Shown here one piece after another: positions 17,965-42,374 of a stretch of DNA of 64,000 bases. Within the stretch, counting starts at the first letter, position 1; every line of letters starts with the position of its first letter. The notes below the pieces were generated by a model that saw only the letters and a list, made by a program, of their open reading frames with translations, did not search any database and was not told the DNA's origin. The translations under genes were made by a program, and so were the position numbers. The stretch is from Thermorudis peleae. GTDB taxonomy: Bacteria; Chloroflexota; Chloroflexia; Thermomicrobiales; Thermomicrobiaceae. The DNA is taken from NCBI RefSeq assembly GCF_000744775.1, contig NZ_JQMP01000001.1:62001-126000 (forward strand), in the 5' to 3' direction.

Positions 17965-18036
17965 TAGCGGGGGTGGGATTCGAACCCACGACCTCCGGGT
18001 TATGAGCCCGGCGAGCTGCCGCTGCTCCACCCCGCG
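17965..18036 (-). tRNA. Initiator tRNA-fMet (CAU)
   Basis: The minus strand reads CGCGGGGTGGAGCAG at the 5' end, a D-arm, anticodon loop CTCATAA with anticodon CAU at 18002-18004, a TTCGAATC T-loop and a CCCCGC 3' acceptor strand. Three G-C pairs in the anticodon stem (GGG/CCC next to the loop) and an unpaired first base (C1 opposite U72) identify the initiator type. The CCA end is not fully encoded (ACCG follows). It is the last gene of the rRNA operon. Confidence 0.95.
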
Positions 18037-18056
18037 CCACTGGCTGGAGGTGGGGT

Positions 18057-18181
18057 GTGCGCGCAGCGGCCTCGCCTCCCACGCGGTCCCCCGCGCAGTA
18101 CTCTCCGGCGCTGGCGTCGGGCACGACCCGGTTCGGGATGGTTCGGGGTGGAATCGACGCCGCTCTCGGCCACGCGCACAC
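18057..18181 (-). rRNA. 5S rRNA
   Basis: On the minus strand the ends pair (GTGTGCGCG with CGCGCACAC), and the interior contains the conserved CGAACCATCCCGAAC loop-C region and the AGAGTACTGC segment near the 3' half. Location between 23S rRNA and tRNA-fMet fits. Exact ends are estimated from the terminal stem. Confidence 0.9.
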
Positions 18182-18194
18182 CGCACCCCCAGCC

Positions 18195-18284
18195 AACATC
18201 GTCGTTGCACGCATCTGCACCCACCATCCAGTGTCGTGCTGGCCTTCCGCCGCCGAAGGATGTCAGGTGCCAGGGACTGGCCTC
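18195..18284 (-). other. 3' half of pre-23S processing stem
   Basis: This stretch is the near-complement of 21250-21330 over about 85 bp, including GTGTCGTGCTGG and GGATGTCAGG matches. In the transcript the two flanks would form the long stem cut by RNase III to release 23S rRNA. Confidence 0.75.
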
Positions 18285-21244
<2,960 letters not shown>

Positions 21245-21249
21245 CGCCT

Positions 21250-21335
21250 GACATCCTCCGCACCGGAAGAGCCAGCACGACACGGGACAGTAGGTGCAGA
21301 TGCGTACAACGACGTTCCTCGTTTGGTAAGGTGCC
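21250..21335 (-). other. 5' half of pre-23S processing stem
   Basis: It is the partner of 18195-18284, with long runs of complementarity to the 3' flank of 23S. The remaining 16S-23S spacer (about 21336-21569) contains no tRNA or other gene that I can recognise, so this operon has a tRNA-free internal spacer. Confidence 0.75.
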
Positions 21336-21568
21336 AACGTCGCCCATCATGCGACCTTGACCCCTGGGGTGTGATTTGCCTGCGGTGCCCACTGTGTTGG
21401 CACGACGGTGTGACGACTCCGGTGTGTGAGTGGTCCTAGGGCAGACCCTCCACCGGCATCCCCGCCGGCTTCTTCAGGCCCCCACGCGACCACCGCCACC
21501 CCGTCCCAGTGCAGCCCGCACCTGCGCCACACCGGTTGACCCAGAAGCTGAGCATCCACCCAGCTCCC

Positions 21569-23088
<1,520 letters not shown>

Positions 23089-23098
23089 CCTCAACCAG

Positions 23099-30920: not shown

Positions 30921-31661
30921 ATGGTCGTGCAGGAGCAGCGGGTGCACATTGATCCATTGAAGCCGCTGGCGGCTGAGCCACACACTGGTCATAACCGCTG
31001 GCATGAAGCCCTGACGCCAGTACTTGAGGTCGAGCCTGGTGTTCCAGTCGCCATCGAAACGCGCGATGCGTTCGATGCCCAGCTCACGCCCCAATCAACG
31101 GACGCCGACGTTGGTCAACTGCGGCTTGGACCCGTCCACCCTCTCACTGGGCCGATTTATGTCAAAGGGGCACAGCCGGGCGATCTTCTTGAGGTCAAGC
31201 TCTTGGCGATCGAGTGCGATCCTTGGCAACACTGGGGCTATACTGTCGAAGTGCCGGGATTCGGGTTCTTGCGGGATGTCTTCCCCGACCCCTACATTGT
31301 CCACTGGCACCTTGTTGGTGACTACGCTGAGTCGCCGCAGTTGCCTGGGGTACGCATTCGACGGGCACCGTTTCCTGGAATTATGGGAGTTGCGCCATCG
31401 CGCGAGTTGCGGGAGCGCATCACGGCCCGCGAAGCTGAGCTCGCACAACGCGGCGGCTTTGCGCTCCTGCCGGATCCAACGGATGCTGTACCGGCGAGCG
31501 GATCAGTTGCGACGGAGGGGCTGCGGACGATCGCGCCACGGGAGAATGCTGGCAATCTCGATATTAAGCAGCTGACTCCAGGCGCGAGCGTCTTTTTCCC
31601 CGTCTGGGTCGAGGGCGCTCTCTTCTCCACCGGTGACGTCCACTTTGCGCAAGGGAAGTGA
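30921..31661 (+). pseudogene. Acetamidase/formamidase, 5' part (interrupted by element)
   Basis: The 246-codon fragment matches the FmdA/AmdA family: VQEQRVHIDPLKP, TGHNRWHEALTPVLEVEPG, HPLTGPIYVKGAQPGDLLEVKLL, and PWQHWGYT, ending at FSTGDVHFAQG. In intact proteins this is followed by DxE and about 130 more residues. Here a stop comes two codons later because the 10.3-kb element entered at HFAQG. The ATG at 30921 has GGTGGAGG upstream. The enzyme hydrolyses formamide or acetamide to ammonia. The truncated chain lacks the C-terminal part, so it is probably inactive. The rest of the gene is at 41964-42374. Confidence 0.92.
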
Positions 31662-33237
31662 GCACAGTGCTGCTCAGCAGCCAGTCGAGCTGCACCCGCT
31701 CGTTGTCCAGCACCGTTACCCGCACTCGCAATAGTTCCAGGAGTGCGCGCCGCTCATCCGGCGTCGCCGCGTTCACGCCAAGGGCGACGTCGTGCGTCAG
31801 GGCCTCGATGAGTGTCTCCTCGTCTGGGACGTCGAGTGTCCCCAGTTCCCCGAGCAGTCGTTCGCGCTCGGTCGTCAGCGCCTGATACTGGTGGCCGAGT
31901 TCTCTCCGTTTGGCCGCAATCACCTCGGCAGGGAAGCCGTCCAAGGCCTGATCAAGGAGCTGGCTCAGCCGCCGCTGCACGTCCGCGAGTGCCGCCTCGA
32001 CGGCCTGGAGCCGATCGGTGATTCGTTCCCGCTCGGCAGCGACGCGGGCACGTTGGTCGGCAATCGCCGCACGCAACAGGTCACGATCGTGGAGCGGCGC
32101 AGTAACGGCCTGCCACACGGCTTCTTCCAGCCAGTCAGCGGGGTACCACGGGGCAACGGGGCAGGTGTCGAACCACGCGGAACCGGAGCGTGTTGGGCAC
32201 CGGTAGTACCGCTTGTGGCTCTGGTTGAAGGAGCCGACGAGAATGCGCCCGCAGGCGCAGGTGATCAGCCCGCGAAGCAGGTAGTCGAACCGTTTGCTGT
32301 TGCGTTGAGCGCGTGCCTTGCCCATATCCAGCGCCTCGTTCGCGATCTGCCAGAGCTCGGGCGTCACGATTGCGGGAGCGGGGGCAACGATCCAGTGCTC
32401 GGGGGCGACTGGCCGCGTCGTGATCGTCTCCGCTTCGGTTTTCACCCGTTTCGTCCGGCCGAACACCCACTGCCCCTTATAGAGGGGGTTGCGGATCATC
32501 TGCCGGATCGTCGTATCGTGCCAGACGCCGTTCACCGCAAAGGTTGTGTAGTTCAACTGCCGCCGTTGACTGGGCGTCGGGACACCCTCCTCGGTGAGGA
32601 GACGCGCAACGGCATGGGTCGAGCGGCGCTCAATCCCAATCAACCGGAAGATGCGCTCGACCACGGCTGCTTCCTGCGGCTCGATCTCGTAGCGTGATTC
32701 GCCCGGAATGTAGCGGTAGCCGTATGCCGGGCGTCCGCCGGAGAGGATGCCGCCACGCTCGGCCTTCGCGCGCTGGCCCATGACCGACCGCAATCGGATC
32801 TTCTCCCGCTCGTACTCGGCGAAGCTGAAGAGCTGGTGCTTGAGGAGCCGTCCTTCCGGCGTGTCGTCGACAGGCACCCGCACGTAATGGACACGGACAC
32901 CGTACCGCTTGAGTTGCTCTTCGAGCACGAGCGCCTTAGTGAGCGAGCGCGCAAAGCGGTCGAGATCCCAGACGAGGAGCACCTGGAAGCGCCGCTGGCG
33001 GGCAGCTTCGAGCATCGCTTGCAACCCGGGAAGATTCCAGTCAGCGCCAGAGGCATCGGCGTCGGCGCCGTCACGAAAGCGCAGATCATCGGGCAAGAGC
33101 CACCCGTGCTGCGCCGCGTACTCTTCGAGGCTCTGCGCTTGTGCGTAGAGGGAGAATCCGCGCTGGGCCTGGAACTGCCGGGAAACGCGCTCGTAGGTAG
33201 CGCACACCACAGGGGAATGAAGTGATAGACTAGTCAT
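31564..33237 (-). CDS. Large serine recombinase (integrase) of the element
   Basis: The 557-residue protein has the N-terminal resolvase domain with ATYERVS (catalytic Ser19) and LDRFARS, the recombinase domain with EYEREKIRLRS, RSTHAVARLLTEEGVPTP and IRNPLYKGQWVFGRT, a zinc ribbon (CACG ... YRCPTRS ... DTCP) and a C-terminal coiled coil. Such enzymes catalyse att-site integration. The start is ATG 33237, with AAAGGAGGT upstream; the longer frame is not used. The reading frame runs through the 14-bp att core (31641-31654) and ends in chromosomal DNA at 31564. The last 30 or so residues are therefore host-derived, and in the excised circle the tail would differ (see findings). Confidence 0.95.
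   Translation of the reverse strand: MTSLSLHSPVVCATYERVSRQFQAQRGFSLYAQAQSLEEYAAQHGWLLPDDLRFRDGADADASGADWNLPGLQAMLEAARQRRFQVLLVWDLDRFARSLTKALVLEEQLKRYGVRVHYVRVPVDDTPEGRLLKHQLFSFAEYEREKIRLRSVMGQRAKAERGGILSGGRPAYGYRYIPGESRYEIEPQEAAVVERIFRLIGIERRSTHAVARLLTEEGVPTPSQRRQLNYTTFAVNGVWHDTTIRQMIRNPLYKGQWVFGRTKRVKTEAETITTRPVAPEHWIVAPAPAIVTPELWQIANEALDMGKARAQRNSKRFDYLLRGLITCACGRILVGSFNQSHKRYYRCPTRSGSAWFDTCPVAPWYPADWLEEAVWQAVTAPLHDRDLLRAAIADQRARVAAERERITDRLQAVEAALADVQRRLSQLLDQALDGFPAEVIAAKRRELGHQYQALTTERERLLGELGTLDVPDEETLIEALTHDVALGVNAATPDERRALLELLRVRVTVLDNERVQLDWLLSSTVLTSLAQSGRHRWRRERPRPRRGKRRSRLESAA
31641..31654. repeat. Left attachment core of the integrative element
   Basis: The sequence CACTTTGCGCAAGG is repeated exactly at 41964-41977. 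It lies inside the formamidase frame at HFAQG and inside the recombinase frame. Flanking bases differ at once on both sides, so the crossover must be within these 14 bp. Confidence 0.9.
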
Positions 33238-33257
33238 TGAAACCTCCTTTACCTTTT

Positions 33258-33296
33258 GACGCCCCGCGTTGCCTCGCACGCACGGCGCGGGGCGTT
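33258..33296 (-). other. GC-rich hairpin in recombinase leader
   Basis: ACGCCCCGCG (33259-33268) and CGCGGGGCGT (33286-33295) form a perfect 10-bp stem with a 17-nt loop between the excisionase stop and the recombinase start. It may attenuate read-through into the recombinase. The stem is nearly the same as the chromosomal terminator at 42395-42432. Confidence 0.55.
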
Positions 33297-33301
33297 GTCC
33301 T

Positions 33302-33523
33302 TCACTGCTGTCCGTCTCGTGTTTCACCCTGCTTGAGAAACCGCTCGATCTCCGACAGCGGGATACGGTAGCCAGCAGCGTCCGAGCCGAGATAGACGGC
33401 GCGGATCTTCCCTTGCCGGATCCAGGTGCGGATTGTCGCCGGCTTGAGCTGTAGCATCGCCGCTGCTTGCTTGACGGTGATGAGTCGCTCTTCCACTGCT
33501 CGCCTCTCAATGACTGTCATCAT
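33302..33523 (-). CDS. Excisionase-like MerR/HTH_17 DNA-binding protein
   Basis: The 73-residue protein has a winged-helix excisionase-type motif: LITVKQAAAMLQLKPATIRTWIRQGKIRAVYL, then GYRIPLSEIERFLK. Small proteins of this type act as recombination directionality factors or as regulators of integrative elements. A GGAG site lies upstream of ATG 33523; the open frame extends further upstream (to 33622) through promoter DNA and is not used. It is directly upstream of the recombinase, in the same direction, which supports a role as its partner in excision. Confidence 0.75.
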   Translation of the reverse strand: MMTVIERRAVEERLITVKQAAAMLQLKPATIRTWIRQGKIRAVYLGSDAAGYRIPLSEIERFLKQGETRDGQQ

Positions 33524-33569
33524 CACCATCGCTCCGATCATAGCACGACGAGAGACCGCCAGAGATGCG

Positions 33570-33598
33570 TTGACAAAAACATACACAAATGATATGAT
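33570..33598 (+). promoter_or_regulatory. Consensus promoter for rightward element genes
   Basis: TTGACA at 33570-33575, 17-nt spacer, TATGAT at 33593-33598 (6/6 and 5/6). It points to the two small genes from 33755. It is the best sigma-70-type promoter in the element and lies in an unusually AT-rich stretch. Confidence 0.85.
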
Positions 33599-33624
33599 AC
33601 AGGAAGAGAATGACAGAAACAAAC

Positions 33625-33640
33625 TGATCGGAACCGATCA
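33625..33640. promoter_or_regulatory. Operator-like palindrome after element promoter
   Basis: TGATCGG and CCGATCA form 7-bp arms around a central AA, about 27 bp after the -10 box at 33593-33598. A repressor bound here would block initial transcription. A related but imperfect ATCGCTCCGAT lies at 33528-33538 next to the excisionase start. Confidence 0.5.
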
Positions 33641-33754
33641 TGATCCGCTCTCCACCAGCATTTCGCCGCAACTCATACCCCGCCGAGTTGGTCGGAAGAC
33701 ACCGAAGCCGCTGGGGACGTGTCCTGGCGGTCGGTCTGAAACGGAGTGGGAACC

Positions 33755-33997
33755 ATGGACGTGCGTGAACGAAAGCGGCTGCTCATGGATGTTGCGACGT
33801 ACTACGCCTGGCGCGGCTACGACGATGTCACCGTGTTTTTCGCCGCTCACCTGGCCGCCGAGGACGACCCAACCGGTCGCATGGCCCGGGTTGCGCTGGA
33901 GCTGTTCCAGGAGCGGCATGCGCTCACGGAAGATGAGGCTGCGCCGCTTCGTGCACTTGCACAGGCACTCGACCGAGCACGTGGTAGCCTGGCGTGA
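33755..33997 (+). CDS. Small hypothetical protein of the element
   Basis: The 80-residue protein is not recognised. It is mostly helical, with N-terminal basic residues (MDVRERKRLLMD) and Ala/Leu-rich amphipathic stretches such as LAQALDRARG. ATG 33755 has GGAGTGGG upstream. It is the first gene downstream of the promoter at 33570. Its location opposite to the recombinase module suggests a regulatory or early role, which is speculation. Confidence 0.6.
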   Translation: MDVRERKRLLMDVATYYAWRGYDDVTVFFAAHLAAEDDPTGRMARVALELFQERHALTEDEAAPLRALAQALDRARGSLA

Positions 33998-34019
33998 GGG
34001 CTGAAGGGAGAAACCAGCG

Positions 34020-34358
34020 ATGGACGTGGTCGAGATCCGCGACCGCCTGATCACGTTGTGTCTCGCCCCAGAGGACGCATTCTGCTTGGCCATGGCCTTG
34101 CGGGCAGCCGAGCTCAAGGCCGGCGATGCCAACACCAGCCTCTGGCTGACAACCGCCCGCAGCTGCCTCGAGGCCGCCGCCCTCGCTGCTGGTGCCTCCA
34201 GCCTCTGTCACCCCGCAAAGGCCGCACGGCTGTCGCTGTCAGCCTTGCGGGCCGGGCGCGTCCTTGATCCGGTCCCCCTCACCTTTGATGAGGAGCTCGT
34301 TCCACGCGCGGAGCCCGTGTTGGACACCGCTGCCGCGCATGCCGAGACTGAACGGTAA
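34020..34358 (+). CDS. Hypothetical helical protein of the element
   Basis: The 112-residue protein is not recognised. It starts at ATG 34020 after GAAGGGAG, 22 nt after the previous gene. It is Ala/Leu-rich and probably helical, with MALRAAELKAGDA and RSCLEAAALAAGA segments. Its 3' end overlaps the C-terminal tail of the leftward ParB-type gene on the opposite strand; the two frames cannot both be under full constraint there. Confidence 0.55.
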   Translation: MDVVEIRDRLITLCLAPEDAFCLAMALRAAELKAGDANTSLWLTTARSCLEAAALAAGASSLCHPAKAARLSLSALRAGRVLDPVPLTFDEELVPRAEPVLDTAAAHAETER

Positions 34359-34798
34359 CCCCCGAGTGTCTTCGCTGGCGGTGCGGTAGTGGCGTGCCCA
34401 GGTTCTTCATGTGAAGAACCTGGACACATGGCTTTGTTGTCACCACACCAGCGCATGGCGGTGACTTCATCAATCCCCGTCGCGCGCTCGACCAGCGTCG
34501 CACGCTCGTCCTCGTCACGTCGCTCGGCCGGGTAGCGCTTGCCGTCGAGACCGAGCACCTTCGGTGGCGGGGTGGCGTGTTCAGGTGTCTCATTTGAGAC
34601 ACCTGAACACTGCTGTTCCTCCTCACACCAGCGAGCGATTGTCCATTGGTCGATCCCCATCGCGCGTTCGATCATGGGGTAGCTCCACCCGAACTCGCGC
34701 CGCAGCCGGCGGACAAGGTCGCGTTGCTCATCGGTGGTCAGCTGACGCCGGGTGACGTTGAGCGCGAGCCGGAGCCGACACACGCGATCAAACGGCAC
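34208..34798 (-). CDS. ParB-type HTH protein, 5'-truncated, with tandem HTH units
   Basis: The 196-codon frame starts with LRLALNVTRRQLTTDEQRD, which in ParB-like proteins follows the N-terminal ParB domain; that domain is absent. It then has two similar units: IERAMGIDQWTIARWC and VERATGIDEVTAMRWC, each a helix-turn-helix followed by a short linker with a coding palindrome, then LGLDGKRYPA in unit 1. The C-terminal tail after TLGGYR is antisense to the 34020-34358 gene and probably not native. The start is GTG 34798 with no good ribosome site. It may be a decayed or chimeric gene. The HTH units remain intact, so DNA binding is possible. Confidence 0.55.
   Translation of the reverse strand: MPFDRVCRLRLALNVTRRQLTTDEQRDLVRRLRREFGWSYPMIERAMGIDQWTIARWCEEEQQCSGVSNETPEHATPPPKVLGLDGKRYPAERRDEDERATLVERATGIDEVTAMRWCGDNKAMCPGSSHEEPGHATTAPPAKTLGGYRSVSACAAAVSNTGSARGTSSSSKVRGTGSRTRPARKADSDSRAAFAG
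34394..34427. repeat. Coding palindrome A in ParB-type gene
   Basis: Arms of 16 bp (34394-34409 and 34412-34427) around TG, with one mismatch; the inner 12 bp (CCAGGTTCTTCA / TGAAGAACCTGG) are perfect. It lies at the linker of HTH unit 2. Confidence 0.95.
34577..34610. repeat. Coding palindrome B in ParB-type gene
   Basis: Perfect 16-bp arms (GTGTTCAGGTGTCTCA at 34577-34592; its complement at 34595-34610) around TT. It lies at the same place in HTH unit 1 as palindrome A does in unit 2, but with a different sequence. Confidence 0.95.
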
Positions 34799-34880
34799 CG
34801 CCGCCGCCTATGCGCTGCGACGGCTTCGCCGTGCGCGGCCTGACCTGCATGCGCGGGTGCTGGCGGGGGAACTCTCACCC
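34788..34880 (+). pseudogene. Fragment of a conserved helical phage-type protein
   Basis: On the plus strand this stretch encodes YALRRLRRARPDLHARVLAGELSPH, a recognisable piece of small proteins common in phages and elements (usually followed by AAxxEAGFRK). Here the following residues diverge (PRLPHRQ), and upstream it overlaps the opposite-strand ParB-type gene, so only a fragment remains. It suggests past recombination at this point. Confidence 0.4.
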
Positions 34881-35130
34881 CACCCACGGCTTCCCCATCG
34901 CCAAACAAGCCTCACTAGCCCCCAGCAAAAGGTTTTCGTCGAAAAAATCGGTTTTCCCAAAAAATTGCCAATTTTGAACGGAAAATTTCCGAGGTGGGGG
35001 CGCGGGTCTCAGACGGCCAGCCGTGAAGATTTCGACCCCCTATCCCCCTTCCCCGTCTATGGCCGCCGTCCAGGAGATACGAGCAGTCAGCAAGCAGCGT
35101 GCTCGAGACAGCGCCACGTTATCCCAACGA
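34881..35130. other. AT-rich gene-free stretch with dyads, possible element origin
   Basis: This stretch has no supported gene. Bases 34925-34992 are much richer in A/T than the rest of the element and contain two short perfect dyads, TTTTCG-T-CGAAAA (34933-34945) and CGGAAA-A-TTTCCG (34979-34991). It lies between the ParB-type gene and the replication operon, a usual place for an origin. No iterons are evident. Confidence 0.3.
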
Positions 35131-35547
35131 TCACGCACCACTCGAGTGGTGATCAGAGAGTGGCGAGTCGGACGAGAGAAGCGGAGCGAGAAAGCGGTAG
35201 GCCTGATGGCACCGATGGTAAACCGTCCCGTACGAGCAACCGAGATCCATCGCGGCGAGCTGCCGCCGTGTCGTGAGACTGTGGCGCAACCGCCATCGAC
35301 GATCAGCATACTCAGTCGCCCACGGGAACAGGTGGACGAGCGCCACGGTCTCGTAGAGCGCCTGGTCGTACTGGCGCAGTGCGGCGAGTGCGCGATCGAT
35401 GTCAGCACGCTGTACGGCAGCACGCAAGGCGAGCGGCTCGAACCGGCTGCCGCGTCCCCGCCGGCGCACTGGCCGGTCGAGTGAACGGCCACGTGCGTCG
35501 AGTTCCTCATATCGTTCAAGCAGCGCCTCGACGTCCGACGGTCTCAC
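35131..35547 (-). CDS. Sigma-region-4/RinA-like HTH protein
   Basis: The 138-residue protein begins DVEALLERYEELDARG and ends with a helix-turn-helix, RRQLAAMDLGCSYGTVYHRCHQAYRFL, like the phage late-transcription activators of the RinA/ArpU type and sigma-70 region 4. GTG 35547 is chosen because AGGAACGGGGG is close upstream; the frame can extend to GTG 35613 with no ribosome site. It is at the end of the leftward replication operon, as these activators often are in phages and phage satellites. Confidence 0.6.
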   Translation of the reverse strand: MRPSDVEALLERYEELDARGRSLDRPVRRRGRGSRFEPLALRAAVQRADIDRALAALRQYDQALYETVALVHLFPWATEYADRRWRLRHSLTTRRQLAAMDLGCSYGTVYHRCHQAYRFLAPLLSSDSPLSDHHSSGA

Positions 35548-35603
35548 AATCCCCCCGTTCCTAACAGAAAGCGGAGCGGCCACATCGAGCCGCCCCGCCA
35601 AGA

Positions 35604-36194
35604 TTACGTCCACTTCGCAAGGAATTCTTCGAGCTCCTGCAGCCAGCGGTCGAGCTTTGACGGGTTGATGTACCCGTGACCACGCTCGGTGACAAACTCG
35701 TGCCAGTGCTGCGGCCAGTCCGTCGGGACGTCCCAGCCGACCTCGGCGAGCAGGCGCACGAGACGGTCATTCGCTTCTTTGGCGCGCTGGAGCGCGTCGG
35801 CGAGTTCACGCACGGCCTCAGCATAGTGCGGTGCCAGCGCTGCCCATTTCCGCCGGCGGTTTTCCCTCTCGAGTCGTCGGGCCTCCTCTTCGAGGTAGCG
35901 CTTCGCTTGACTGAGTCGCTCCAGCCGACTCGGGAACTCCGCGAGCGTGCGCTCGGCCTGCTCGAGCTCGGCTCGGGCGGCGGCGAGTTCCTCTGCGACG
36001 TCCTCACCGGCGAGTTGGCGCACCTCGAGTGCCGTGGTGCGCTGGCTGAGCGCATCGCGCTGCTCGACGAGCCGGTGCCGTGTCTCGCCGGCCGCGAAGA
36101 TCTCGCTCTCGATCTCGCCCAGCCGGCGCCGTACGGCGATGAGTTCAGGAAGGTCTTCGTATACGAAGGTCTCGGCACGCTTGAGCTTCGCCAT
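35604..36194 (-). CDS. Coiled-coil hypothetical protein
   Basis: The 196-residue protein is not recognised. Residues about 20-145 are strongly predicted to form a coiled coil (heptad-rich Leu/Glu/Arg such as LAAARAELEQAERTLAEF and LEEEARRLERENRRR). It ends in a more compact region with WDVPTDWPQHWHEFVTERG. ATG 36194 lies 4 nt after the previous gene. A scaffold or nucleoid-associated role in the replication operon is possible but not shown. Confidence 0.7.
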   Translation of the reverse strand: MAKLKRAETFVYEDLPELIAVRRRLGEIESEIFAAGETRHRLVEQRDALSQRTTALEVRQLAGEDVAEELAAARAELEQAERTLAEFPSRLERLSQAKRYLEEEARRLERENRRRKWAALAPHYAEAVRELADALQRAKEANDRLVRLLAEVGWDVPTDWPQHWHEFVTERGHGYINPSKLDRWLQELEEFLAKWT

Positions 36195-36198
36195 CGGT

Positions 36199-36693
36199 CT
36201 ACCGTCCTTTCACCATCCGGAACTCGATCGTCGGTCTGTGTTGCGCCCACGCCGGCACAGAGCGTGGCCGTCCGCTGTCCTGCGTCCGTCCCACCGTCAC
36301 GAGCGGCCGCTTCCGGCGCGCACGCAGCTTCGCGAGCCGGAACCGCCACAGCTGCCGCGCGAGATACTCACCGAGCAGGTCAGCGCGCTGCTCGCTCTGC
36401 CGGTACCCGAGCCGGGCAATTGCCAGATGCCCGAACTCGTGACAGACCGTGTTCTCGATCTGCGCGGCGTCCCAAGGGAGATCGGCTCGCAGGACGATCG
36501 TGGACCGGGTCGGGTCTGCGCCACCGCGGAGTGGGACAGGGGAGACATAATCTCCCGCTGACGGAGTCTTGCGCACGAACTCGACGACGACAGCGAGGCC
36601 AAGCAGTTCGGCAAGGTCGTCGCAAAGCTGCCACGCGGTTCGCCGGAGCCAGACCGGCACGTCCTTGTCTGGTACGACTGCATAGCGTTCCAT
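36199..36693 (-). CDS. HExxH metalloprotease-like protein
   Basis: The 164-residue protein has a zinc-binding HEFGH motif (ENTVCHEFGHLAIARLGY) near residue 87, with a possible third ligand in the following helix. The N-terminal part has SPVPLRG and ADPTRSTIVLRADLP. Domains of this type include ImmA/IrrE-like peptidases, which cleave phage/element repressors, and SprT-like proteins. The HEFGH core is certain; the substrate is not. It lies 3 nt after the nuclease gene in the operon. Confidence 0.65.
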   Translation of the reverse strand: MERYAVVPDKDVPVWLRRTAWQLCDDLAELLGLAVVVEFVRKTPSAGDYVSPVPLRGGADPTRSTIVLRADLPWDAAQIENTVCHEFGHLAIARLGYRQSEQRADLLGEYLARQLWRFRLAKLRARRKRPLVTVGRTQDSGRPRSVPAWAQHRPTIEFRMVKGR

Positions 36694-36696
36694 CGG

Positions 36697-37479
36697 TCAC
36701 CTCCATTCGACGCATCGTGTGGCACGGCACTGGTTCTCGGGCGAGACAGGCGGGCCGCGACCGCGCGCGTCCACCTGGCCAACCGGATCGTCGTCGGCGC
36801 ACGGCAGCGGCTGCAGGAGCTGCTCAGCGTGGAGGGCGCGGTAGAGAGCGAGCGCGGCACGGAACCCGTAGCGTGCGCGCTCGAGATCCACGCGGTACGC
36901 ACGGTAGGTGTCGTCTCGGAGCTGGACGACTACGCCATGCTCGACCGTCTCGCCGGTCATCTCCTCGACCGCCCTGGCGTAGGCGCCGAGCTGGAGCGCG
37001 TGCTCTGGCCAGACCCCACCGGTCTTCCAGTCGAGTACGGCGAGCGCCCCGTCCGGCGTCCTCGCCACGAGGTCACAGGTGCCGGCATAGCCGTCCGTGT
37101 CGGACAGGATGAGGTACTCGTGTGCCAGTGGCTCGAGGCCGAACGTGTCGAGCACGGCGGTGGCAACCGGATCGCGTGCCGGCGACGCGATGCGGCCGTG
37201 CCGCGCGGAACCACGCGCTGCCGCGCGGTCGCGGAGCCGCTCTGGTTCGCTCTGTGCGTAGGCCAGTGCGGCCGCGAGTTCCCCTTGTGTGATCGGCTCG
37301 CGACCGGACAGGTAGGCGGCAACAGCGTCGAGCGCGACCCGGGCCGCCCACGGGGCGATCGCGGGCTTGGCCACGACGGCGAGCACGCTCGTGACGCTGA
37401 GGTACAGCTTCCCATCGATGCGGTAGTACCGCGTGCCGTGGATGTTCAGGCGCTCACCCTCTCTCAGTGGCAACTGCAT
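36697..37479 (-). CDS. PD-(D/E)XK (Cas4/RecB-like) nuclease
   Basis: The 260-residue protein contains the RecB-family nuclease motifs: YAGTCDLVAR (catalytic Asp), AVLDWKTGG (D...ExK-type with Lys) and LQLGAYARAVEEM (QxxxY motif). The N-terminal part has a helix-rich region with RYYRIDGKLYLSVTSVLA. No Fe-S Cys cluster is present, so it is closer to phage exonucleases than to Cas4. ATG 37479 has GGAAAGGA upstream; the gene overlaps its neighbour by 16 nt. Likely role: DNA end processing in element replication or recombination. Confidence 0.8.
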   Translation of the reverse strand: MQLPLREGERLNIHGTRYYRIDGKLYLSVTSVLAVVAKPAIAPWAARVALDAVAAYLSGREPITQGELAAALAYAQSEPERLRDRAAARGSARHGRIASPARDPVATAVLDTFGLEPLAHEYLILSDTDGYAGTCDLVARTPDGALAVLDWKTGGVWPEHALQLGAYARAVEEMTGETVEHGVVVQLRDDTYRAYRVDLERARYGFRAALALYRALHAEQLLQPLPCADDDPVGQVDARGRGPPVSPENQCRATRCVEWR

Positions 37480-37784
37480 GCGGGCTGTCCTTTCCCGTGA
37501 CTGTTCGGCGTGACGCGCCGCGCGAGCGTCCAAATCGCACGCTCTTCGACCGACCAGAGTGCCTCCGGATCGGGGAGCAGAGAGCGCGCGTTGATCGTTG
37601 CGAGCAGGGCGCGTTTCCTGTGATAGAGCTTCGTGAGTTTGATTTCGAGCGTGCTCACGGTCCTGCGGTCCTGCTCGGTTGGTTGCCGCCGGCACAACGC
37701 CGATCGGAGTGACAAGAGTTCTCGCGACAAATGGTTGATTTGTTGCTGGGTCGCGACGAGCTCGGCGAAGCGTGCGTCCGTCAC
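37464..37784 (-). CDS. Small helical hypothetical protein
   Basis: The 106-residue protein is not recognised. It is helical with a probable coiled coil (VATQQQINHLSRELLSLRSAL and LEIKLTKLYHRKRALLATI). The GTG start at 37784 follows AGGAGAGGGG and overlaps the VRR-NUC stop (GTGA). Its end overlaps the PD-(D/E)XK start by 16 nt, so it belongs to a tightly coupled set. Confidence 0.6.
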   Translation of the reverse strand: MTDARFAELVATQQQINHLSRELLSLRSALCRRQPTEQDRRTVSTLEIKLTKLYHRKRALLATINARSLLPDPEALWSVEERAIWTLARRVTPNSHGKGQPACSCH

Positions 37785-38119
37785 AGCAACCCCTCTCCTT
37801 GGAGGACGGCGACGATCCTGTCCCATTCGCTCGGCCGCCAGACCTCGACGCAAATCCCCGGCACCTGTCGGAGCACGGCGAGCCACTGTTCCTGTGCCGG
37901 TGAGAGCCGGCCGCGCTCGCTCTTGAGCTCGGCCAGGATCAACGGCCGGCCTGGCTTGGCGAGCACCAGATCCGGGAAGCCCGCCGGTGAGCGCACCGAG
38001 AGCCACGTATGGTAGACGGTCCAGCCGAGCAGACGCGCCAGCTCGATCACCTGCTGGGTGAAGGCCTTCTCGGTGACCGCAGCATCGAGCTGGTGACGGC
38101 CGAAGGGGAAGGCGGTCAT
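37781..38119 (-). CDS. VRR-NUC domain nuclease
   Basis: The 112-residue single-domain protein shows VRSPAGFPDLVLAKPG followed by LILAELKSERGRLSPAQEQWLAVL. This GxPD...ExK...SxxQ arrangement is the VRR-NUC signature of Holliday-junction or flap nucleases found in phages and element replication regions. It lies 2 nt after the primase-helicase. ATG 38119 is followed by a basic N-terminus. Confidence 0.85.
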   Translation of the reverse strand: MTAFPFGRHQLDAAVTEKAFTQQVIELARLLGWTVYHTWLSVRSPAGFPDLVLAKPGRPLILAELKSERGRLSPAQEQWLAVLRQVPGICVEVWRPSEWDRIVAVLQGEGLL

Positions 38120-38121
38120 CG

Positions 38122-40905
38122 CTATCGCTCCTCCCGCTGCCGCCAGAGCGTGCGCGGTGGCTGGCGCACCAGCCTCCCGGCCTGTTCTGGCAACACCAAC
38201 ACCGAATGCTGCATCACGCGCGCCTCGCCATGGGCCACGGCCAGCTGCCCACGCTCAACGAGGTCCTGCAGCACTGGCTGGAGTTGCGCGAACGGCACCC
38301 CCACCGCTTCTGCCAACCGGCTCGCATAGACCGGAGCAAGCCAGCGCAACCGCTCACGCACCTGCTCGGCAAGCGCGGCTTCTCCAGGTGCACCATCCGC
38401 GCGAAAGCCAGCGAAGTGACCGTCCGCACCGTCCGCAACCGTCCGCAGCTCCGGAAATTCCCCATCAGCACGCCCAAATCGCTGCGGACGGTTACCAAAG
38501 ACCGATTGCTCGCAATCGTCCGCAACCGTCCGCACACCGTCCGCAGCAAGATCCGCGTCGGGATGCGGGTTTGCTGCGTGCGCGGACGATGCGGACGATG
38601 CGGACGGTTGTGCCCCAGCTTTTGCGCGCGCCAGCACAATGAGCCGTCGCCGGTCGTGTCCCTCCCGCACAAATTCGACGGCAACGCCGTGCTGGCGCAG
38701 CGCCGGCGCAAGTCGCCGCACCTCACCCGCCAGCCCGCGCGCCGTCTTCGGCCAACTCCGCATCCGCTCCCGCTTGCGGCGCGTCTCCTCATCAGCCTGC
38801 GCCTCGAGGTCATCGAGGAGTTCCTGCGCGGTGCCCCGCCAGTCGCCACCTGTCTCGAGCATCGCCAGGATCGCGGCCGCAAGCGGTGAGGCGTCGAGCA
38901 CCGTCGTCCCCGTTTCTCGCCGGTTCTCGCAATAGCGCGCGAGAAACTGCGCGCCCAGCTCCTCACCAAGCGCAGCGACCGCCCAACGGGCAAAATCGGC
39001 CATGCGCGGGTACGCCGTCAGGTGCACCTGCGGCTCGCGCTGGAGTGCCTGTACCACGCCGTCGAGCACGGCCCCGAGCAGGGCTGACCGCTCGGCCTCG
39101 AACGCCGTCCAGAACGCCGACTCTGGTTCCCGTTCCTCGTCGCCAAGGCGCGGCAGCGTCAACACGAGGGCGCGGTCGAGCAAGTCCGGCTGCGCAATCA
39201 CGTCGGCAATTGCGGTAAGCAGCACCGGCCGCTGCGCCGCGAGAATGGTTTCCTCGCGGTTCTCGTACAAGGTGCGCGCCGCAAAGCCGGCGCCGGTGGC
39301 AATCCGGCAGAGCGCGTCCGACAGCCAGTTCGACAGCCGCGACACGTTGTCGAGCGCAAGGAGCCAGCTGTTCACGGCCGCCACCCACAGATCCCGTTCT
39401 TCGCGGGGTTCAGCGCGCAGATCGGCGTCGTTGGGGTCAACGAGCCGCCGCAGCACGCGGGCCGTGGTGCTCTTGCCGGCGCCCTGCTCGCCGCCCAGGG
39501 CCAGGACGGGGTAGGGCCCGCGTGGCCGGAAGGTCATCACGAGCCAGCCCGCGACGAGCGGCCGATCTTCGGGGGCCACGCGGATGAAGCGCCAGAGCCG
39601 CGCGAGCGAGCCGCCCCGTTCTGGCACCGGCAACGGTTGCAAGCCGCGCGGGCGGCGGAACCGCACCGGCGGATTGGTCACCACCCGCCAGCCGTCAGCC
39701 GTGATCTCGACGGCGCGCCACTGCTCGTCCGCGAGATCAAGGTAGAGCGCGCCCGCGTGCTCAGCGATGCGGACGAAGACAGGATGTTCCGCACCGTCGA
39801 AGAGCGCGCGGCCGCTCAGCGCGTCAATCGCGTCGGCAACGGCCTGGTGATGTGCCAGCTCGCCGTATCGTTCATAGAACGCACGCTGCAGCCAGGTGCG
39901 GAAGGCGCGCGAGGCGAGTGGCCAGTGCTCACGCTCCTCGCCGACCGGAATCGTGGCCCATGGCTCATCGTCAGGCGTGTGCCAGAGTTCAAGGCCGCGT
40001 GACTCGACGAGTTCCAGCACCCGGGTGGCCTGCGAGCGCCGCTCGTCACGCTCCGTGCTGACATGGTGTGCAGCCGAGCCATGTTCCGCGTTGGCGCTCG
40101 CCGGTGCCTCGTCTGGCGTCCATGGCCGCGCGCGCTCGAGGAGCCGCCGCACGTCCTCAGCCGTGCCGCCGCGCGCCACGAAATCGGCTGCATCGCCTTT
40201 CTCTGGTGCGTCCGGCCAATCAACCCAGCGCACGTCGCCACAGCCGAGTGCTGTCAGTCGCTCGGCGATCCGCTGCATGTGCCGCATGCCGGCGGCGTCG
40301 TTGTCTGGCCACAGGAAGACGCGCCGGCTGGCAAGCGGCCGCAGGACGTCGTCGCTCGGGGTCACACTCGCGCCGCAGACAGTGCCAACAGCCGAAAGCC
40401 CGAGCTGAAGCAGCGCGCCGGCGGCCTTCTCGCCTTCGACGATGATCACCTCAGGCGCGTCGCCGAGCTTCTCCACGCCGTACAGCGGCAGCTCCTCGAC
40501 GCGCTTGCCGTTGAGTTCCCAGCGGCCGTCCGGCAGCTGCCAGAACAACTCCTTGGAGCCGCCGGGCTTGTCGCGGCGAATGTGGATCGCGACCAGCGTG
40601 CCGTCGAGGTCACGCAGTTCGTAACGCGTCTCGCGCACTGGCGGCCGCTCACGGCGTTCGCGGCGCGGCCAGAGATCGCGGTCTTGCAACGCGCGAATCA
40701 CCGCGTGGTTGGGGCAGCCGGCGTGACACCGCAACAAGATCGTGCCGTCATTGCCAACCGTGACGTTCAAACTCGGACGGTCGTCGGAGTGACACGGGCA
40801 GTGGACGAGACCTTGACCGTCGCGCGCACTCCGCTGGCACCGGCAATGCGCCTTGTCGCACGTGAGCGCGTTGAGGATGCGGCGCACATCGACGCGTTCA
40901 GTCAT
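38122..40905 (-). CDS. Primase-helicase with CHC2 zinc finger, TOPRIM and AAA+ domain
   Basis: The 927-residue protein starts with a Cys-rich zinc finger (CDKAHCRC, HCPCHSDDRPSL, LRCHAGCP, residues about 16-65), the primase CHC2 type. A TOPRIM domain follows with IIVEGEKAAGAL (about 150) and LWPDNDAAG (about 200). The C-terminal half has an ATPase domain with Walker A GGEQGAGKSTTA (about residue 470) and LLALDNVSRL as a Walker B-like strand. This is the architecture of phage and plasmid primase-helicases, which open and prime the origin. ATG 40905 is preferred because GAGGAGGG is upstream. It suggests that the element replicates independently after excision. Confidence 0.88.
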   Translation of the reverse strand: MTERVDVRRILNALTCDKAHCRCQRSARDGQGLVHCPCHSDDRPSLNVTVGNDGTILLRCHAGCPNHAVIRALQDRDLWPRRERRERPPVRETRYELRDLDGTLVAIHIRRDKPGGSKELFWQLPDGRWELNGKRVEELPLYGVEKLGDAPEVIIVEGEKAAGALLQLGLSAVGTVCGASVTPSDDVLRPLASRRVFLWPDNDAAGMRHMQRIAERLTALGCGDVRWVDWPDAPEKGDAADFVARGGTAEDVRRLLERARPWTPDEAPASANAEHGSAAHHVSTERDERRSQATRVLELVESRGLELWHTPDDEPWATIPVGEEREHWPLASRAFRTWLQRAFYERYGELAHHQAVADAIDALSGRALFDGAEHPVFVRIAEHAGALYLDLADEQWRAVEITADGWRVVTNPPVRFRRPRGLQPLPVPERGGSLARLWRFIRVAPEDRPLVAGWLVMTFRPRGPYPVLALGGEQGAGKSTTARVLRRLVDPNDADLRAEPREERDLWVAAVNSWLLALDNVSRLSNWLSDALCRIATGAGFAARTLYENREETILAAQRPVLLTAIADVIAQPDLLDRALVLTLPRLGDEEREPESAFWTAFEAERSALLGAVLDGVVQALQREPQVHLTAYPRMADFARWAVAALGEELGAQFLARYCENRRETGTTVLDASPLAAAILAMLETGGDWRGTAQELLDDLEAQADEETRRKRERMRSWPKTARGLAGEVRRLAPALRQHGVAVEFVREGHDRRRLIVLARAKAGAQPSASSASSAHAANPHPDADLAADGVRTVADDCEQSVFGNRPQRFGRADGEFPELRTVADGADGHFAGFRADGAPGEAALAEQVRERLRWLAPVYASRLAEAVGVPFAQLQPVLQDLVERGQLAVAHGEARVMQHSVLVLPEQAGRLVRQPPRTLWRQREER

Positions 40906-41182
40906 TGCGGCCCTCCTCGCGCTCGGTGAGGCGGCCTGCCAGCTCGTCGCGTGTTGCGGCGAGCTTCTTTCGCGCGCGCTCAGCGGCGCCGCGCAAGATG
41001 TCGTAGGCGGCGATGAGTGCTTCCGCCTCTTGGGGGGTGAGGTCAACCCGCCCTGCGCGCTTCCGGGCGAGTTGCGCGAAGTGCTCCCGTGCCTGCTCGG
41101 GGGTTGCTGCGTACTTCCGGCGGTACGCCTCGCGCGCCGCGAGGGTGCGGCGCTGATTGGGGGTCAGAAACTGGTCGCCCAT
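40898..41182 (-). CDS. Small helical hypothetical protein
   Basis: The 94-residue protein is not recognised. It is charged and helical (AAREAYRRKYAATPEQAREHF, AERARKKLAATRDELAGRL). It precedes the primase-helicase with an 8-nt overlap and is the first gene after the operator-containing promoter at 41272-41300. A replication accessory or helicase-loader role is speculation. Confidence 0.6.
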   Translation of the reverse strand: MGDQFLTPNQRRTLAAREAYRRKYAATPEQAREHFAQLARKRAGRVDLTPQEAEALIAAYDILRGAAERARKKLAATRDELAGRLTEREEGRND

Positions 41183-41271
41183 GGGGCAAACCTCCGTCCC
41201 ACCCCCTCGAGCTTCGCGCGGGAGGGGATCGTCCGGCCCCCGATGGGCGCTCGCCGTATCCGACTAACTAC

Positions 41272-41300
41272 AGTGTACGGACACCGCGCGGCGGTGTCAA
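41272..41300 (-). promoter_or_regulatory. Promoter of replication operon with operator in spacer
   Basis: On the minus strand TTGACA (complement of 41295-41300), 17-nt spacer, TACACT (complement of 41272-41277). Inside the spacer, 41281-41297 is a perfect palindrome, ACACCGC-GCG-GCGGTGT. The -35 overlaps the stop codon of the gene upstream. A repressor bound in the spacer would shut off the primase-helicase operon. Confidence 0.75.
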
Positions 41301-41755
41301 GGTGCCGTCGGCGCCTCGAGTCTGTTCACCGCGCCACAACGCTCGCATTCCATGAGGTGCGGTAAGAGCACGCGCATGGAGTCTCCCCGGTGGTCAGACA
41401 GCTCGGGGTCTCGGAACGGAAGCCAGGCGTTCGACCCTTCCCTGAGCGTGAGTCGCGAGGGTGACGGTTTGTCCGCCTTGTGCCGTTCCTTCAACCATGC
41501 CTGTCGCCGTTTCTTCGTCGGCCGGAGAACCGCCGGCGCGTTCGGATTCGTCGGGTCAGCGACGACCGGCTTAAAGCCTGGCGGGACGGCGAACCACCAG
41601 CGAGGTGTATATCCCGGCCACAGTTCGTCGGAAGCGGCTTCGCCGAGACGGTAACCGCACCGCCAGCAGGCATACTCGACAAACTCGCGGTCTCCGACAC
41701 GCCAGCGGTGCTTCTGCCGTGCGCTCTGAGTCGTGCTGGGAAACGAAAAGGTCAT
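41297..41755 (-). CDS. Zinc-ribbon hypothetical protein
   Basis: The 152-residue protein is not recognised. It has two CxxC pairs, YACWRCGYR near residue 32 and CERCGAVNR near the C-terminus, which together can bind zinc. Between them is a Trp/Pro-rich segment (PGYTPRWWFAVPPG). The ATG at 41755 has weak ribosome-site support. It is the first gene of the element at the right end, facing the replication operon, downstream of the promoter at 41838-41866. Confidence 0.65.
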   Translation of the reverse strand: MTFSFPSTTQSARQKHRWRVGDREFVEYACWRCGYRLGEAASDELWPGYTPRWWFAVPPGFKPVVADPTNPNAPAVLRPTKKRRQAWLKERHKADKPSPSRLTLREGSNAWLPFRDPELSDHRGDSMRVLLPHLMECERCGAVNRLEAPTAP

Positions 41756-41837
41756 GCCTCACGCTCCTCGCTGTCGCTCGTTCTCGAGCACCAAAGGCAC
41801 TGCCAATTTCTCCGGTTGAGTACGTTCAGCTGTGCCT

Positions 41838-41866
41838 ATTCTAGTACAGCGCAATGCGATGGTAAA
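41838..41866 (-). promoter_or_regulatory. Promoter near right end of element
   Basis: On the minus strand TTTACC (complement of 41861-41866), 17-nt spacer, TAGAAT (complement of 41838-41843). It would transcribe the zinc-ribbon gene. The -35 is weak (4 of 6), so this is tentative. Confidence 0.5.
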
Positions 41867-41963
41867 GCTACGCCGCTTGGGTACCAACCGTGAGTGCGAC
41901 GAGGTGCTCCTTATGCGGCGCAGTCACGGAGATCGAGCACCGTGCTAAGCAACACTTTGTGCT

Positions 41964-41977
41964 CACTTTGCGCAAGG
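41964..41977. repeat. Right attachment core of the integrative element
   Basis: Exact second copy of the 14-bp sequence at 31641-31654. It joins in frame to the 3' part of the formamidase gene. Confidence 0.9.
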
Positions 41978-42374
41978 AGATTGTGAGGCATGCGGAACGG
42001 CAATTGAGATCCGCTCGGTGGTACACGTCGAGTTCCGCATCCATAAGGGCGAGGCTGAGCGCCAGGGCATTCGCACCCTCCGCTTTGTCCGTGATACCTA
42101 TTTCACGGACCCGGAGTTGGCCGTGCCTCGACGCTGTTATGCCACGACCGGAATCTGTGTGCGCGAAGACGGCCGAAACGAATCTGAAGACTTGTCACTC
42201 GCCGCACGGGATGCCTTGCTGCGAATGATTGACTATCTTGAGCATCGCGGGTTTACTCGGCAGCAAGCCTACGCGCTCTGTAGTGTCGCGGTTGACCTGC
42301 GGGTGAGCCAAGTTGTCGATGTGCCAAACTTCATTGTGACGGCGCTGTTGCCCTTGGACATCTTCGTTGGATAA
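41964..42374 (+). pseudogene. Acetamidase/formamidase, 3' part
   Basis: Read from the core, the frame gives HFAQGDCEACGTAIEIRSVV, then VEFRIHKGEAERQGIRTLRF, then LEHRGFTRQQAYALCSVAVDLRVSQVVDVPNFIVTALLPLDIF, which is the known C-terminal part of FmdA/AmdA. It has 137 codons including the core and the stop. It has no start of its own except a GTG near 42018 (VHVEFR). Its conservation shows either recent insertion or selection to keep the gene restorable. Joined to 30921-31654 it gives 376 residues. Confidence 0.92.

Follow-up and report, generated by a model that had tools for sequence, protein, structure and literature searches.

Phage satellites are defined as elements of 7-20 kb between attL and attR that encode an integrase together with regulatory and replication genes and carry no structural genes (PMC13376191). 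The Vibrio phage-inducible chromosomal island-like elements (PLEs) are satellites in which a large serine recombinase is used for integration at att sites and for circle excision, the directionality factor for excision being supplied by phage ICP1 (PMC6002521). Mycobacterial prophage-like elements of the phiRv1 type are small and carry an integrase (a serine integrase in phiRv1), an excisionase and a primase (PMC3986857). Here we describe an integrative element of 10.3 kb that divides a formamidase gene in a 64-kb stretch of Thermorudis peleae DNA (contig NZ_JQMP01000001.1, positions 62,001 to 126,000), referred to below as the window. Gene-splitting elements that are excised in development or in active lysogeny include skin, the fdxN/XisF element and the comK prophage, and serine integrases often take conserved coding sequence as their attB.

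In its content the window element fits the definition that applies to the phage-inducible chromosomal islands and their relatives (10 kb, att sites, integrase, regulator, replication genes), but it has no known helper, and class-specific interference or packaging genes were not recognised. A large serine recombinase acting at att sites is common to this element and the PLEs, whereas no ICP1-like helper is known here and the gene content is otherwise unrelated as far as examined. The plan of the phiRv1-type elements is close to that of the window element, although prohead protease and capsid genes, both missing from the window element, persist in relatives such as phiBN42_1. With skin, fdxN/XisF and the comK prophage it shares a serine recombinase and the possible precise restoration of a split gene; unlike them, it gives no sign of programmed or regulated excision. 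Membership of its integrase in the XisF/fdxN or Ccr recombinases was rejected, the matches lying far under the curated cut-offs. Judged by its genes, the element probably works like a phage satellite, and no named satellite class is claimed for it. Our preferred reading, to which we give a probability of about 0.6, is a phage-derived, satellite-like integrative element.

The insertion site and the divided formamidase gene

The sequence indicates that a phage-derived element of about 10.3 kb was inserted by its own site-specific recombinase into the host's only formamidase gene, an insertion that would be reversible in principle. The following features mark the site.

30921-31661, + strand: 5' part of the formamidase gene (PF03069 profile positions 2-245), ending HFAQGK-stop with bases from the element
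31641-31654, + strand: attL core, exact repeat
41964-41977, + strand: attR core, exact repeat
41964-42374, + strand: 3' part of the formamidase gene, own start absent (PF03069 profile positions 260-371 for 42018-42371)

The 14-bp core CACTTTGCGCAAGG is exact and occurs in exactly two copies in the window, as the first-pass annotation had reported. Such a repeat was rejected as stand-alone evidence, because the window contains 22 maximal exact direct repeats of at least 14 bp. Its significance derives from its position, since joining the flanks rebuilds a gene that has uninterrupted homologs in relatives. When 10,323 bp are removed and the flanks are joined at the core, the frame of the 3' part is continuous with that of the 5' part and a single formamidase frame of 376 residues results, the outcome that had been predicted; the two halves cover complementary stretches of the PF03069 profile. 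Uninterrupted homologs of the rebuilt protein (about 369-375 residues, 63-83% identity) were found in 18 genomes when 40 relatives were searched, and none of them ends naturally at HFAQGK. The seam of the rebuilt gene, STGDVHFAQGDCEACGTAIE, recurs letter for letter in several relatives, so that the empty attB expected of a large serine integrase is present in nature. Both the insertion and the empty sites are thus supported by comparison. The G+C content of the element is 66.3%, against 59.1 and 59.4% in its flanks.

With the rebuilt protein as the query, the host genome yielded the two halves only and no other member of the formamidase family. Among the 19 genomes that have the gene it is split in one, that of the host. 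The branch lengths of the two halves (0.15 and 0.11) do not go beyond those of intact homologs and show no excess in the 3' half. The possibility that the split gene has decayed was rejected (four replacements at otherwise invariant columns, the branch of the 3' half no longer). Synonymous sites are saturated, and the insertion is therefore undatable.

The integrase and its exchanged tail

31564-33237, - strand: large serine integrase with Resolvase, Recombinase and zinc-ribbon domains (phrog_95, 3e-98)

All three domains lie in one protein, each over its Pfam cut-off, as in a complete, phage-type integrase. Its relatives in IMG/VR reach only 28-29% identity. The reconstructed circle junction (attP) reads TGTGCTCACTT-TGCGCAAGGG-AAGTGAGCACA, in which perfect 11-bp inverted arms enclose a 10-bp spacer; inverted arms at the core match the expectation for a serine integrase. 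Such 11-bp arms occur at about eight separate places in the whole window, and we estimate, post hoc, that chance alone would place a pair precisely at the junction in a few cases per thousand. The centre of symmetry lies between core bases ten and eleven, and its assignment as the crossover dinucleotide is a guess.

The integrase frame has no stop inside the element; at attL it crosses the core and stops in the antisense strand of the formamidase gene (window 31564-31660). The attP site consequently spans the 3' end of the integrase gene, inside the reading frame, and integration alters approximately the last 17-25 residues of the protein. The integrated form ends in ...SLAQSGRHRWRRERPRPRRGKRRSRLESAA (tail ...GRHRWRRERPRPRRGKRRSRLESAA), while the circular form would end in ...SLAQSEHKVLLSTVLDLRDCAA (tail ...EHKVLLSTVLDLRDCAA). 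Sister integrases from another genus, described below, end near the corresponding place, which suggests that the exchanged tail lies outside the conserved protein. A literature search on attP sites inside serine integrase genes gave nothing useful. With exactly defined att sites and relatives that serve as natural empty-site controls, the locus makes excision by a serine integrase of a thermophile lineage directly testable.

Gene content and related elements

The remaining genes of the element are as follows.

33302-33523, - strand: excisionase-type protein with a helix-turn-helix (HTH) domain (HTH_17, 1.5e-13; TIGR01764 over cut-off)
33746-33997, + strand: small conserved element-family protein, about 80% identical in G007:C14
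34020-34358, + strand: small conserved element-family protein, 80% identical in G007:C14 and found nowhere else in 61 genomes
34208-34798, - strand: HTH-like frame overlapping the preceding gene, 62-71% identical in G007:C14 in several frames, weak HTH match
35131-35613, - strand: protein of unknown family, no library match
35604-36194, - strand: coiled-coil protein, generic SMC-like matches only
36199-36693, - strand: possible HExxH metallopeptidase with a CHEFGHLAIAR motif, from its sequence and a weak SprT-like match (0.063)
36697-37590, - strand: PD-(D/E)XK exonuclease of phage type, RecB/Cas4 fold, start codon uncertain (phrog_298, 1e-31; PF12705, 1e-5)
37781-38119, - strand: VRR-NUC nuclease (PF08774, 5.7e-8; phrog_93)
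38122-40905, - strand: Toprim primase-helicase (phrog_6088, 1.7e-26; phrog_239; Toprim)
40898-41182, - strand: small protein of no family, open frame
41297-41755, - strand: paired-cysteine protein of no family, open frame

Family searches agree with the first-pass annotation on the serine recombinase, the excisionase-type protein, the primase-helicase and the two nucleases, and the reading frames of the exonuclease, the VRR nuclease and the primase-helicase are all open. The "sigma-like activator" that it had placed at 35131-35613 has no family match in Pfam, PHROGs, NCBIfam or PADLOC and that name is dropped. The frame at 34208-34798 is conserved only in pieces and is uncertain as a real gene. 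Profile searches of the element's proteins against Pfam and PHROGs recognised no capsid, portal, terminase or tail family, the set by which a temperate prophage is known, and no relaxase or conjugation family was found among them such as would mark an integrative and conjugative or mobilizable element; the earlier statement that virion, terminase and conjugation genes are missing therefore holds. As defence cargo, the element offered only generic coiled-coil and Cas4-fold matches.

Sister integrases, 50-51% identical overall, occur in two genomes (G007 and G002) of another genus of the same family, and in no other of 158 class genomes was an integrase found at that level. A second copy of the element was rejected, none being found in the host or in 157 other class genomes (integrase E <1e-60) apart from these two sisters at another target. 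The catalytic part of the sister integrases is about 80% identical to that of the window element, whereas the rest, with the DNA-binding region, is only 31-42% identical. Their target also differs, being an ABC-transporter solute-binding gene entered ten codons ahead of its stop, of which G011 has the empty form. Comparison with the sisters shows that the DNA-binding region and the target gene have changed while the catalytic domain of the integrase has been retained. The sister element of G007, like that of G002, is found 8-15 kb downstream of an intact formamidase gene (L083:3000-12249, L084:3647-20000), a site near the target of the window element, though in a different gene.

The G007 sister (contig C14) is collinear with the window over five left-end genes in the same order, namely the integrase, the HTH gene (48%), the two small proteins and the HTH-like frame. 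This left end is followed in G007 by a gene for an HK97 major capsid protein (PF05065, 5e-41; phrog_10, 1e-56). PF04860 (portal) and two terminase models gave no match in G007, though some portal and terminase families lie outside these models; in the host genome, an SPP1-type portal that Pfam found directly was missed by PF04860. The contigs of both sisters (G007:C14 and G002:C34) end within the element. By comparison of these sequences, the window element looks like a capsid-less cousin of a capsid-bearing element.

In several genomes the primase-helicase has relatives with 42-65% identity across large parts of its length, and further ones occur in metagenome-assembled genomes (MAGs) of other phyla. 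Relatives on circular plasmids, among them one of Methanothrix (12 kb) and one of Methylobacterium (20 kb), support a role in replication. The earlier description of a replicating satellite or plasmid-like element stands as such and is sharpened by this family on circular plasmids and by the capsid-bearing sister. IMG/VR gave no relatives of the primase by pattern. The host genome contains two more relatives (L086:9469-13302 and L087:7996-11529); around them lie ordinary genes, and no integrase or capsid gene was recognised there.

Primases of the same kind were found close to HK97-type capsid genes in G001:C2, where the capsid match is weak, and in the MAGs L073 (Bacillota) and L079 (Balneolaceae). 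The L079 element apparently has only a tyrosine integrase, the primase, small genes and the capsid gene between host genes. Small elements with an integrase and/or a replication gene and one HK97-type major capsid gene were seen in several phyla (L079:7212-14582; L073:8416-13195; L091:7367-13604; L083:12249-17652; L101:13020-17862), with no portal or terminase recognised near them. We regard it as doubtful, if worth stating, that the window element is a capsid-less form of an undescribed, phylum-spanning minimal family (integrase, primase-helicase and at most one HK97 capsid gene; no portal, terminase or tail), in which the exchange of the integrase tail at attP would set the activity or stability of the enzyme in its integrated and circular forms. 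Candidate members would be G007:C14, G001:C2 and the Bacillota and Balneolaceae elements; if the family is real, it would extend the phage-related elements by a minimal type. A literature search on capsid-only satellites gave nothing useful.

Proposed maintenance of the element and competing explanations

As a satellite-like element, it would have entered when its integrase recombined attP with an attB at the point where the formamidase gene encodes its conserved HFAQGD motif; this one crossover would have added 10.3 kb and interrupted the gene, and the element would then have been maintained quietly in the chromosome. We infer that upon induction the integrase and a directionality factor would occasionally excise the circle and rebuild the formamidase gene exactly, that the primase-helicase and the two nucleases would replicate the circle, and that for its spread the element would rely on a helper phage, having no genes of its own for capsid, packaging or transfer. 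The HTH_17 protein, encoded directly upstream of the integrase, is a candidate directionality factor or regulator. Excision might also need a helper protein, by analogy with the Vibrio PLEs and their phage-borne factor. The host genome has, close together, a gene for an SPP1-type portal and a match to a capsid family (G000:C3, about 130.5-132.0 kb; L104:10554-12014), which are a possible prophage relic or helper, or the relic of one.

Several observations weigh against this reading. Two terminase models and the PF04860 portal had zero matches across the host genome, and no complete helper prophage is therefore evident. The identity of the excision factor is uncertain: in G007:C67 a 91% identical copy of the HTH gene (L094:572-739) lies upstream of an integrase with only 30% identity, so that HTH and integrase genes recombine independently, and the protein is a weaker candidate for a dedicated excision factor and may be a regulator. 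Helper, induction and particle are all without a known example, and the missing capsid genes also fit deletion.

Deletion is the basis of the main rival, a stripped prophage remnant, in which a larger temperate phage or capsid-bearing element with the same integrase lost its late genes and left its early genes stranded. The G007 capsid gene just past the shared left end is consistent with this, as are the exonuclease, helicase-primase and protease genes, which resemble a phage early region such as that of phage Zeta1847, and GC-rich prophage relics have been reported in Thermomicrobium roseum (PMC2615216). Such a remnant is nevertheless rather unlikely, as both att ends are exact, the integrase and replication genes are intact, no broken late-gene fragments were found in the element, and relatives of the primase belong to plasmids and small elements, not to full phages.

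The element could also be plasmid-like and independent of phage, with the primase-helicase copying circles that move by transformation, vesicles or conjugative helpers. The best long matches of the primase-helicase in named records are indeed plasmids (those of Methanothrix and Methylobacterium, and one of Streptomyces), and its phage matches are weaker and partial. We consider this improbable, given that the integrase, exonuclease and VRR genes belong to phage-type families, that the sister carries a capsid gene, and that relaxase and partition genes are absent.

The control of formamide or acetamide use by active lysogeny, proposed in the first-pass annotation as a regulated excision from which the host would benefit, fits the exact restoration in sequence (necessary, not sufficient, for active lysogeny), the splitting of the sole family member and halves no more diverged than intact homologs, but is very improbable, since the arrangement is not kept across related genomes, 18 relatives having an intact gene and no element, the two integrase sisters occupy a different gene, no element gene is tied to amide or nitrogen control, and a recent insertion accounts for the intact halves just as well, saturation blocking a timing test.

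The other GC-rich stretch of the window, at 17965-23089, was considered as a second mobile element and rejected; it is a 16S-23S-5S ribosomal RNA operon with a tRNA gene.

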